Positions 29,344-49,723 of a DNA stretch of 64,000 nucleotides are shown here, piece by piece. The notes under the pieces are model-generated. The model was not told the origin of the DNA, searched no databases, and worked only from the letters and a program-made list of their open reading frames with translations. Both the position numbers and the translations under genes were made by a program. The DNA comes from Halorussus salinus (GTDB taxonomy: Archaea; Halobacteriota; Halobacteria; Halobacteriales; Haladaptataceae). The DNA lies in the NCBI RefSeq assembly GCF_004765815.2, contig NZ_ML974127.1:1094927-1158926 (forward strand), in the 5' to 3' direction. The first letter of the stretch is position 1; each line of letters opens with the position of its first letter.

Positions 29344-29483
29344 GGCGCGCGCGGGCGCGGCACGAGGCCGCGCCCACCCGTGCGAGGGACGAGGACCGCA
29401 ACGCAGTGAGGACCGCAGTCGGTTGGGGAGGACGTGGCCGTCGCGGCGCTGTGCGGTATGAGAGGCGTCGGCTTCAGTGCGGT
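29344..29483 (+). repeat. dispersed repeat family B, copy 2
   Basis: Plus-strand copy of the repeat also found reversed at 9355-9509. Shared blocks in order are GCGGGCGCGGC, CCGCGCCCACC, GTGCGAGGGACG, TGGGGAGG, GTGGC-GTCGCGG and CAGTGCGGT. The variable segment between GGGACG and TGGGGAGG here is GAGGACCGCAACGCAGTGAG-like and unrelated to that of copy 1. Confidence 0.65.
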
Positions 29484-29978: not shown

Positions 29979-30029
29979 AGCGACCGCCGGGAGGAGGGAG
30001 AACGACCCCTCGAAAGCCCCCGGTCGCTC
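29979..30029 (+). repeat. partial copy of dispersed element family A
   Basis: Contains the left-end sequence TCGAAAGCCCCCGGTCGCTC (30010-30029), identical to that of the full element 87 bases downstream, and a complementary GAGCGACCG at 29979-29987, so it can fold on itself. Both copies are preceded by a GAG-rich CCGCCGG-GAGGGAG segment, so this looks like a local tandem duplication of the element end. Confidence 0.6.
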
Positions 30030-30096
30030 ATTACGAGTTGGATTGAAAGCGACTCCGAGTACCGAAGCAACCGCCGGAGAGAGGGAGCAGAACGCC

Positions 30097-30228
30097 TCGA
30101 AAGCCCCCGGTCGCTCGCGGTCGTTCTGCGGGATATTTCCGCGCCTCACCGCAACGCACCGCATCGGCGCGGAAATAGTGGCCCGCAGAAGCGACTGAAC
30201 TGTACGCGAGCGACCGGCCCCTTTACCC
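30097..30228 (+). repeat. dispersed structured element family A, full copy 1
   Basis: A long imperfect hairpin with three stacked stems: 30107-30119 with 30205-30217 (13 base pairs), 30124-30132 with 30182-30190 (9 pairs) and 30134-30145 with 30166-30177 (12 pairs), all perfect. The ends are TCGAAAGCCCC on the left and GACCGGCCCCTTT on the right. The copy at 41121-41238 has the same architecture and junction sequences (GGGATAT, ATAGT-GCC) but different stem sequences that still pair. It may be a structured RNA or a non-autonomous mobile element. Confidence 0.7.
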
Positions 30229-30351
30229 CGCCCGCCGGTGGTTTGCGTCACCGAGCGTCTGCCGGTAGTTTGTCCAGTTGAGCGTCTGCCAGTAGTTTGC
30301 GTCACCGAGCGTCTGCCGGTAGTTCGTCCAGTCGAGCGCCCGCCGGTCGGG
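30229..30351 (+). repeat. 27-base tandem repeats, four full units and a partial
   Basis: Units start at 30229, 30256, 30283, 30310 and (15 bases) 30337. Two variants alternate: one ends GCGTCACCGAG, the other GTCCAGTYGAG, each after CGYCYGCCRGTRGTT. They follow family A copy 1 directly. A shortened relative, GAGCGTC-GGTAGTTCGT, follows copy 2 at about 41268. The units have no spacers, so this is not a CRISPR array. Confidence 0.75.
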
Positions 30352-30453: not shown

Positions 30454-32445
30454 TCAGTCCCCGCCGACCTTCCGCTGGATGTCCTCGACGACCTCCGGGT
30501 TCCGGAGCGTCGAGGTGTTGCCCAACTCCTCGTCGTTGGCGATGTCCTCCAGCAGGCGGCGCATGATTTTCCCGGAGCGGGTCTTCGGGAGTTCGGGCGT
30601 GAACACGACCGCCTCGGGCCGGGCGATGGGACCGATGGCGTCCTCGACGCCCTCCTCGATTCGCTGGCGCATCTCGTCGTCCTCGTCGTAGCCGTCCTCG
30701 GTGATGACGTAGGCGTAGACCGCCTCGCCTTTCACGTCGTGCTTGCCGCCGACAACGGCGGCCTCGGCGACGCCCTCGACGCCGACGATGGCCGACTCGA
30801 TTTCCATCGTTCCGAGTCGGTGCCCGGAGACGTTGAGTACGTCGTCCACGCGCCCCAGCACGGTGATGTAGCCGTCCTCGTCTATCTTCGCGCCGTCTTC
30901 GGGGAAGTACACCCAGTCGTCCATGTCGTCGGATTGGGTGTCGGAGTACTCGGCCCAGTACTCCTGAATGTACCGCTCGTCGTTGTCGTAGAGGGTCCGG
31001 AGCATCCCCGGCCACGGCTTCTGGACCGTGAGGTAACCCGCTTCGCCAGCGTCCACCTCGTCGCCGTTGGCGTCCACGACCTGCGCGTCCACGCCCGGAA
31101 GCGGCGGTCCCGCGGAGCCGGGTTTCATCGTCTTGACGCCCGGTAGCGTCGTGACCATCATCCCGCCGGTCTCGGTCTGCCACCACGTGTCCACGATGGG
31201 GCACGACTCGTCGCCGACGTTGGTGTAGTACCACTTCCACGCCCGCGGGTTGATGGGTTCGCCGACCGTCCCGAGGAGCCGAAGGCTCGACAAGTCGTGT
31301 TCGTCGGGGTACTGACTTCCCCACTTCATGAACGCCCGAATCGCGGTCGGCGCGGTGTAGAGTTGGGTCGCCTCGTACTCCTCGATGATCTCCCAGAGGC
31401 GGTCGCGCTCGGGGTGGTCGGGCGTGCCCTCGTACATCATCGTCGTGGTCCCCAGCGCCAGCGGGCCGTAGACGATGTAGGAGTGGCCGGTAATCCAGCC
31501 GATATCGGCCGAGCAGAAGTATGTGTCGTCGGGTTTCACGTCCAGCACCGCTTGGGAGGTCCACGCGGTCCACGCCAGATACCCGCCCGTGGTGTGCTTG
31601 ACGCCCTTCGGTTGGCCGGTCGTCCCCGAGGTGTACATCAGGAACAGCATGTCCTCGGCGTCACGGGAGACCGGTTCGACCTCCGCGCCCGACTGTTCGT
31701 CCACGAGGTCTTGATAGTAGTGTTCGTTCGACTCCAAGTCGTGGCCGTGGTCGTGTTCGCCGAGGCGGTCCACGACCACCACGTCCGACACCTCGTGGCC
31801 CACGTCGTCTAAGCCCTCGCGGGTCTTCTCGTAGTGGTCCAAGGCGTCGCCCCGCCGGAAGTAGCCGTTCGCCGTGACGAGGTACTCCGAATCCGCGCTC
31901 TCCATCCGGGTCGCCAGCGCCTCCGCCGAGAACCCGGCGAACACGACCGAGTGGGGCGCACCGATACGCGCGCAGGCCAGCATGGCGACGGGCAACTCCG
32001 GAATCATCGGCATGTACATCGTCACCACGTCGTCCTCGCCGACGCCCATCTCACGGAGCGCGGCCGCGAACTCGTTGACCTCGCGGTGGAGTTCTTCGTA
32101 GGTGTAAGTCCGGTTCTCCTCGTCGGTGGGTTCGCCGACCCACTCGATGGCCGCCTCGTCGCCGCGCTCGTCTAGGTGGCGGTCGAGGCAGTTCGCCGAG
32201 GCGTTCAGCTTCCCGCCCGTGAACCACTCGTAGAACGGCGGGTCCGAGTCGTCCAGTACGTCGTCGTACGATTCGTCCCAGTCCAACAGTTCGGCCGCCC
32301 GCTCCCAACACTCGGGCCACTCGTCCTCGAACTCGTCGTAGATGGAGTCGTCGGAGACGTTCGCCTGCGACACGAACTCCTCGGGCGGCTCGAACTCGTC
32401 TTGCTCCTCGAGCCGTGCTTCTAGTTCGGCGGTATCTTCGGGCAT
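30454..32445 (-). CDS. acs: acetyl-CoA synthetase (AMP-forming)
   Basis: A 663-residue ANL-superfamily enzyme that activates acetate with ATP and CoA. The P-loop-like YTSGTTGQPKGVKHTTGGYL region (about residue 270), DTWWQTETGG and the C-terminal PKTRSGKIMRRLL with the lysine that is the acetylation-regulated catalytic residue are present. The tryptophan in DTWWQTE matches acetate-specific members. Length is normal. A TATA-like ATTTAT lies about 33 bases upstream of the ATG. It stands alone, downstream of a small membrane-protein gene on the same strand. Confidence 0.95.
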   Translation of the reverse strand: MPEDTAELEARLEEQDEFEPPEEFVSQANVSDDSIYDEFEDEWPECWERAAELLDWDESYDDVLDDSDPPFYEWFTGGKLNASANCLDRHLDERGDEAAIEWVGEPTDEENRTYTYEELHREVNEFAAALREMGVGEDDVVTMYMPMIPELPVAMLACARIGAPHSVVFAGFSAEALATRMESADSEYLVTANGYFRRGDALDHYEKTREGLDDVGHEVSDVVVVDRLGEHDHGHDLESNEHYYQDLVDEQSGAEVEPVSRDAEDMLFLMYTSGTTGQPKGVKHTTGGYLAWTAWTSQAVLDVKPDDTYFCSADIGWITGHSYIVYGPLALGTTTMMYEGTPDHPERDRLWEIIEEYEATQLYTAPTAIRAFMKWGSQYPDEHDLSSLRLLGTVGEPINPRAWKWYYTNVGDESCPIVDTWWQTETGGMMVTTLPGVKTMKPGSAGPPLPGVDAQVVDANGDEVDAGEAGYLTVQKPWPGMLRTLYDNDERYIQEYWAEYSDTQSDDMDDWVYFPEDGAKIDEDGYITVLGRVDDVLNVSGHRLGTMEIESAIVGVEGVAEAAVVGGKHDVKGEAVYAYVITEDGYDEDDEMRQRIEEGVEDAIGPIARPEAVVFTPELPKTRSGKIMRRLLEDIANDEELGNTSTLRNPEVVEDIQRKVGGD

Positions 32446-41049: not shown

Positions 41050-41120
41050 TGACACAGCACTGCTTGGTCCGGCCTGCTACAGGTAGTCGGTTTGTGAACG
41101 ATAGGTAGAGTTCTTCGTTT

Positions 41121-41240
41121 TCGAAAGCCCCCGCCCGCTCGCGGTCACTCGGCGGGATATCTGGCGCGCGCAGTTCTGTGCGCGACAGATAGTAGCCACG
41201 CTGAGGTGACTAAATCACACGCGAGCGGGCGACCCCTTCC
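41121..41240 (+). repeat. dispersed structured element family A, full copy 2
   Basis: Same layout as 30097-30228. The outer stem pairs 41132-41143 with 41220-41231 (12 pairs, sequence CGCCCGCTCGCG). The inner stem pairs 41159-41173 with 41176-41190 (13 Watson-Crick pairs, one G-U, one mismatch). A middle stem near 41146-41153 is weaker than in copy 1. Left end TCGAAAGCCCCC and right end GACCCCTT match copy 1. The stems differ in sequence from copy 1 on both sides at once, so pairing is kept by compensatory changes. Confidence 0.7.
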
Positions 41241-41267
41241 AGTCCCACCCGACGATAGTCGGACGAG

Positions 41268-41306
41268 CGAGCGTCGGTAGTTCGTACCGCCGAGCGCGTC
41301 GGTCGG
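41268..41306 (+). repeat. shortened 27-base repeat following element copy 2
   Basis: GAGCGTC-GGTAGTTCGT and then CGAGCG-GTCGGTCGG align with units 4 and 5 of the tandem array at 30310-30350, with small deletions. It shows that the tandem-repeat tail belongs to the element rather than to the site. Confidence 0.5.
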
Positions 41307-41369
41307 AGTCGGCAATCGAGCGTCGGAGCCGAAACGTGAAGGGCGAGCGCGGGGTAGGTCGAGAGAACC

Positions 41370-49294: not shown

Positions 49295-49494
49295 GCGCCG
49301 GTGGTGAGAAAACGCGACGCGTTTTCGAGCCTCGGCGCGCGAGCGAACGTCGTGAGCGCAGTGCGCCGGTGGTGAGACGGACGAAGTCCGTCGATGCTCG
49401 GCGCGCAAACGAGCGAAGCGAATGCAGTGCGCCGGTGTCTTGCCGAACGAAGTGAGGCAAGGCTCGGGGCATAAGCGAACGCAGTGAGCGCAAT
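49295..49494 (+). repeat. tandem array of tRNA-Gly 5'-end repeats with variable hairpins
   Basis: GCGCCGGTG, the first bases of the tRNA-Gly that follows, recurs at 49295, 49363 and 49429 before the tRNA itself at 49495, with spacings of 68, 66 and 66 bases. Each unit holds a different short hairpin (AAAACGCG/CGCGTTTT; GACGGAC/GTCCGTC; CTTGCC/GGCAAG), then CTCGGCGC or CTCGGGGC that can pair with the GCGCCG, then a GAGCGAA-type segment and GCARTGCGCC. Confidence 0.8.
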
Positions 49495-49565
49495 GCGCCG
49501 GTGGTCTAGTGGTATGACTATGGCCTTCCAAGCCATCGACCCGGGTTCAAGTCCCGGCCGGCGCA
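49495..49565 (+). tRNA. tRNA-Gly (anticodon TCC)
   Basis: A complete 71-base cloverleaf. The acceptor stem pairs GCGCCGG with CCGGCGC and is followed by discriminator A. The anticodon stem ATGGC/GCCAT encloses CTTCCAA, giving anticodon TCC. The T-arm CCGGG-TTCAAGT-CCCGG is intact. No CCA is encoded and there is no intron. It stands alone after the repeat array and marks the left edge of a low-GC islet. Confidence 0.95.
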
Positions 49566-49723
49566 CTTCTCCGACGAACTACACGGCGAGGAGCGCGTCT
49601 GCTCGCCGCTCGTGAGTCGTAAAATGTGTCCGGGAAGCACATCTCCTATTATCGAAGATTCGTATGACTGAGCAGAAAGTGAAAACGATGATTCCAAGCG
49701 ACTGTGGATGACGACGCGATGTG

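Follow-up and report, generated by a model that had tools for sequence, protein, structure and literature searches.

GTAG REP sequences and the related REPINs, which occur in bacteria and are associated with RAYT, are small palindromes scattered through intergenic DNA, in which a conserved foot flanks a stem that varies in sequence and remains self-complementary; the REPINs are inverted dimers. In the GTAG families, G.T stem pairs have often been seen (PMC3733652). CGTC REPs are likewise scattered palindromes whose foot is conserved, and they have no dedicated transposase (PMC3733652). Among haloarchaeal elements, SMR-A of Haloquadratum walsbyi (HqIRS42, HqIRS43 and HqIRS55) is a non-coding sequence of ~110 bp with prominent inverted repeats, present in dozens of copies and with no known mobilisation route; it inserts into PATE/IS605 palindromes and its copies share high sequence identity (PMC3119063).

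Here we analyzed a 64,000-nucleotide stretch of the Halorussus salinus genome (the window; genome G000), in which an earlier note had pointed out two similar hairpins, designated copy 1 and copy 2. They belong to what is apparently a large, undescribed family of palindromic repeats of salt-loving archaea: no earlier description was found in the open-access literature, which was searched by sequence and by terms, and the text of the RepRanger paper (PMC12306157) contains no word starting with “halo”. The family resembles the GTAG REPs in its dispersed intergenic palindromes, conserved foot and variable self-complementary stem, and the tail-to-tail dimers that it forms in other haloarchaeal genera may correspond to the inverted dimers of REPINs. 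However, it consists of a nested hairpin of ~100–200 nt, as opposed to 20–40 bp; its foot is GAAAGCCCC/GCCCCTTTC, with GAAAG/CTTTC and unpaired C runs, and GTAG precedes only some copies; many host genomes carry no Y1 transposase; and G.T pairs are not in excess. With the CGTC REPs it shares the dispersed palindrome, the conserved foot and the lack of a dedicated transposase, but those have stems of 8–9 bp, bacterial hosts and another foot. SMR-A is similar in size, inverted repeats, non-coding nature and high copy number; in contrast, going by the published description of SMR-A, the copies described here are divergent and sit between ordinary genes. PATEs are likewise non-coding, palindromic and haloarchaeal, but their palindromes are near-terminal and related to IS605 ends, whereas this family has one central nested hairpin and no link to TnpA/TnpB. 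Finally, MITEs are also small and non-autonomous with inverted-repeat ends. Unlike in MITEs, the ends here are asymmetric (GAAAG is separated from the stem by a C run on one side and by a G run on the other), the conserved sequence falls outside the inverted repeat, and the genomes read yielded no transposon with matching ends that could be its parent.

Anatomy of the hairpins

The coordinates and shared ends of copies 1 and 2 were correct as first described, and both hairpins were confirmed to be real. Folded with a few flanking bases, copy 1 (30097–30228) gave −72.3 kcal/mol and copy 2 (41121–41240) −65.8 kcal/mol (z −5.4 for each), and none of 200 shuffles folded as well as either. The earlier account of the stems was accurate, except that the inner stem of copy 2 has 13 Watson–Crick pairs out of 15 and is not an exact match. 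It had overlooked a middle stem, GGTCGTTCTGCGGG/CCCGCAGAAGCGACT in copy 1, as well as a partial second left end at 30010–30029, in a register 87 nt upstream of copy 1. The unit is also larger than noted, since it also includes a left arm (~30 nt) and, on the right, a tail built of tandem 27-bp repeats (Table 1). Duplication of the left end is occasional, with further examples at loci L248 and L252.

Table 1. Features of copies 1 and 2 in the window.
Feature	Position	Strand	Basis
Extra left end, truncated after the first bases of the stem (includes left arm and foot; TCGAAAGCCCCCGGTCGCTC at 30010–30029)	29979–30065	+	Exact foot match; repetition of the copy 1 left arm
Copy 1, left arm (GCAACCGCCGGAGAGAGGGAGCAGAACGCCTC)	30067–30098	+	Similarity between copies reaches about here; weak conservation left of the foot (128 copies)
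Copy 1, left foot (GAAAGCCCC)	30099–30107	+	Almost invariant, both in 29 own-genome copies and order-wide
Copy 1, outer stem, 5′ arm (CCGGTCGCTCGCG)	30107–30119	+	Fold and covariation
Copy 1, middle stem, 5′ arm	30119–30132	+	Folds and covariation
Copy 1, inner stem, 5′ arm (TATTTCCGCGCC)	30134–30145	+	Fold
Copy 1, inner stem, 3′ arm (GGCGCGGAAATA)	30166–30177	+	Fold
Copy 1, middle stem, 3′ arm	30182–30196	+	Folds
Copy 1, outer stem, 3′ arm	30205–30217	+	Fold and covariation
Copy 1, right foot (GCCCCTTTACCC)	30217–30228	+	Own-genome copies and order-wide foot search
Copy 1, tail of 27-bp tandem repeats (GCCGGTAGTTTGCGTCACCGAGCGTCT; repeats at 30234–30347)	30229–30347	+	Similar tails after other copies; within the insertion elsewhere
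Copy 2, left arm (approximate)	41090–41122	+	Position taken from that in copy 1; conservation weak
Copy 2, hairpin	41123–41240	+	Fold
Copy 2, left foot; right foot	41123–41131; 41232–41240	+	
Copy 2, outer stem arms	41132–41143; 41220–41231	+	
Copy 2, middle stem arms	41143–41156; 41196–41210	+	
Copy 2, inner stem arms	41159–41173; 41176–41190	+	
Copy 2, tail	41241–41318	+	End approximately where identity with the empty site of G009 resumes

Throughout the family, the element runs from the left arm and the left foot GAAAGCCCC through the outer stem, the middle stem and the inner hairpin to the right foot GCCCCTTTC, followed by AGTCC(C)ACCC. The conserved parts are the left foot and the right foot with the start of the tail, GCCCCTTTCAGTCC(C)ACCC. 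In Halorussus, the left arm measures ~30 nt and is weakly conserved (128 copies, left of the foot), and the 27-bp tandem-repeat tail is frequent after the right foot. The feet pair in the fold as GAAAG/CTTTC, leaving their unpaired C runs opposite each other; on the other strand, these are G runs with a possible G-quadruplex. The outer stem has 12–13 bp and the inner hairpin is variable. From the copies compared, the stem between the feet reads as long, nested and free in sequence provided that both arms match. In line with the frequent tail in Halorussus, a GAGCG/GGGCG motif lies 15–75 nt to the right of 59% of the copies, compared with 7% to the left and 18% further out. Halorussus copies are mostly single; tail-to-tail dimers with spacers of 20–28 nt were detected in other haloarchaeal genera, and no head-to-head dimer was among them. 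In three loci, an unrelated palindrome or sequence takes the place of the inner part, with the foot and the start of the outer stem retained (L321, 182–308; L202, near 7884; L243, near 6532). The right foot may resemble the end of the haloarchaeal CRISPR repeat.

Occurrence of the family in haloarchaea

A BLAST search with copy 2 as the query detected copy 1 at E 2.9e-7. A covariance model was built from 29 copies of the own genome, including copies 1 and 2, and its search of G000 returned 51 copies at E ≤ 6e-11. Run against this genome and other Halobacteria, the search that had been proposed as a check revealed a dispersed family with members across the order. The closest relatives among the named matches were in Halorussus, with others in Haladaptatus. 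Among the 18 Halorussus genomes, the copy number varied from 0 (G008) and 1 (G013) through 8, 10 and 13 up to 39 to at least 81, the highest count that the scoring allowed. Across the order, 116 of 243 genomes, about half of the sampled Halobacteriales, were matched at E ≤ 1e-6, where the weaker matches may include unrelated palindromes. A search independent of the model, using the exact right foot CCCCTTTCAGTCCCACCC, found it in 85 of 195 genomes, and its reversed control gave zero matches among those listed; one genome from another family (G117) contained 60 copies of the foot motif. At 23 of the 32 places inspected, CCCCTTTCAGTCCCACCC had an upstream palindrome preceded by GAAAGCCC, and these palindromes had 23 different stems, indicating a conserved foot combined with a stem that is free to vary. 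Phage records and IMG/VR contained no match to the family.

Changes in the arms and at orthologous sites

The proposal that the fold was kept while both arms changed received strong support. In 96 aligned copies, 97.6% of the cells were paired, and in 31 order-wide copies, double changes were present at 28 of 34 pairs; fitting of these alignments to the model biases them towards the structure. None of 500 shuffles reached any of these measures, which answers the proposed check on the significance of the covariation, and shifting the pairing partner by one column lowered pairing to <45%.

The related proposal of compensatory change stands in so far as the arms change together. However, whole paired inner modules differ at one site between species: at sites common to G000 and Halorussus genome G009, the surroundings are similar and the inner part differs, and at the same sites in related species both arms of the inner stem differ together. 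This looks more like replacement of modules than stepwise compensation. Between loci L075 and L366, identity is 87% in the left part with the outer stem and 81% in the right part versus 68% in the interior, and one locus has CTCTGCGGG/CCCGCAGAG as its middle stem where the other has CTGGCCGAC/GTCGGCCAG. Types of outer and middle stem seem to assort nearly independently: in 104 copies, their mutual information was 1.18 versus 1.04 after shuffling (s.d. 0.07), with 14 of 500 shuffles as high. Taken as sequence comparisons, these data speak for, and do not prove, a swap of paired modules or a rewriting templated by the fold instead of slow compensation.

Thirteen G000 sites were compared with up to six relatives. 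The hairpin was missing from at least one relative at 12 of them, indicating that copies come and go; the reading of the element as non-autonomous and mobile, one of two that had been offered, is supported by this presence and absence at orthologous sites. Empty sites were often short native spacers (15–110 nt, compared with ~270–370 nt in G000), and the spacers at the compared sites are too diverged to fix exact element ends or a target duplication. At the copy 2 site, G009 and G017 had an empty spacer; the element was present in the same orientation in G016 and G012 and inverted in G015, and G002 showed a left-end remnant. The copy 1 site was occupied in G015 and held a shortened form in G009 and G002. 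Two G009 spacers (L304 and L339) contained tail-like 27-nt repeats and no hairpin, with a full element at their G000 counterparts, which suggests that hairpins have probably also been lost at some sites. Some of the absences from relatives could be due to loss rather than lack of insertion.

Genomic context of the copies

All 51 copies lie between genes according to our own ORF scoring. Their spacers comprise 35 tandem (orientations 20 versus 15), 12 convergent and 4 divergent ones, so that divergent, promoter-bearing spacers are depleted (4/51 versus a background of 28/111, p = 0.01). No recurrent neighbour protein family was found beside the copies beyond one cluster, the largest, which, going by sequence alone, looks like a ubiquitous ABC-transporter family.

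Several other features of the window were recorded. The gene adjoining copy 1 (30454–32445) is, judged from its sequence, apparently an acetyl-CoA synthetase; it has a near paralogue in G000 (C1:129715–130762; 88% identical over the 1 kb compared), and two such matches also occur in several relatives. A second dispersed repeat family (GGTTGGCGCGCGC...CGAGGGACGAGGACCGCAACGCAGTGAGGACCGCAGTCGGTTGGGGAGG) is present at 29344–29457, with many Halorussus matches at ~75–98% identity, and similar sequence seems to adjoin the hairpin element in G016 and G012 (L137 and L139). At 49325–49522, there are three tandem 66-nt units, the second and third of which are 73% and 67% identical to the first; the last runs into a tRNA-Gly(TCC) gene (49495–49566).

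Alternative explanations

The other reading that had been offered, a structured RNA family (an sRNA or an mRNA-borne regulator), would account for the strong covariation, although strong covariation alone is no proof of RNA. An RNA should tolerate G.U, and not A.C, on its own strand. With one junction column pair left out, the 96 copies contained 25 G.T and 33 A.C mismatches (own genome, 5 versus 10; order-wide, 15 versus 21). The junction pair held 29 G.T and no A.C cells, the one column pair that speaks for RNA, and its inclusion changed the 96-copy count to 54 versus 33 (p = 0.03); a tRNA control for this test comprised nine tRNAs, which is too few. The otherwise similar frequencies of G.T and A.C suggest that the palindrome is maintained at the level of DNA and not as a one-strand RNA, and we read the element as a DNA palindrome. 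Copies occur in both orientations relative to neighbouring genes without preference, stem sequence and length are free, sites are unconserved, and an Rfam search of the region at a loose threshold gave only a sub-threshold match elsewhere. An RNA family is thus unsupported by these data, and we regard it as very improbable. Less probable still would be palindromic IS200/IS605 remnants of the PATE type that owe their movement to a TnpA Y1 transposase, even though PATEs are common in a haloarchaeon and have palindromes near their ends (PMC3119063). PF01797 had no match in six Halorussus genomes rich in copies (G001, 60; G002, at least 81; G003, 66; G009, 39; G010, at least 81; G016, 50) or in G117 with its 60 foot motifs, which argues that an IS200/IS605 or RAYT-type transposase is not needed. 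Moreover, no copy lay within 1.5 kb of the 24 Y1 matches of the genus, and the foot motif was absent beside 48 TnpA/TnpB loci. An IS200/IS605 origin was accordingly rejected. As a separate observation, of the 24 TnpB-like matches in G000, 15 are on contig C8, which has none of the 51 hairpins.

A hairpin used by the host, as DNA or in transcripts (a nucleoid or topoisomerase site, a terminator or protection of mRNA ends), spread by recombination and kept by selection, would fit the exclusively intergenic positions and the depletion of divergent spacers, and the conservation of the foot in many genera could also reflect a host function. Against it, one near-complete Halorussus genome carries no copy and another a single one, orthologous sites are mostly unshared, and orientation in tandem spacers is 20 versus 15; we consider such a role unlikely. 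The reading that we prefer, with a probability of about 70%, is that of a REP/REPIN-like non-autonomous mobile DNA palindrome, a variant of the REP kind.

Proposed mechanism and implications

As a REP-like mobile palindrome, the element would form its hairpin on single-stranded or cruciform DNA, and an enzyme supplied in trans would recognise the foot and the shape of the hairpin rather than the stem sequence. In many host genomes, this putative enzyme would not be a Y1 (TnpA/RAYT) transposase; among 236 left ends, none was recognised as part of an autonomous version whose hairpin encloses a gene. Copies would survive where insertion into spacers is harmless. The arms may be kept matched because a folded arm templates repair of the other arm or, alternatively, because recombination exchanges paired inner modules between copies. 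More tentatively, the family may represent an order-wide class of mobile palindromes that is recognised by shape and by the GAAAG-CCC foot and has sequence-free stems, with a mover that is neither Y1/RAYT nor a known REP-acting transposase, and with both arms changed jointly in situ, either through repair templated by the fold or through an exchange of modules.

If the preferred reading is true, haloarchaea would possess a REP-like repeat system that reaches more than 80 copies in a genome, is polymorphic between species and has no known mover. This would make testable both the spread of palindromic repeats in the absence of RAYT and the means by which long palindromes preserve the match of their arms during sequence turnover.
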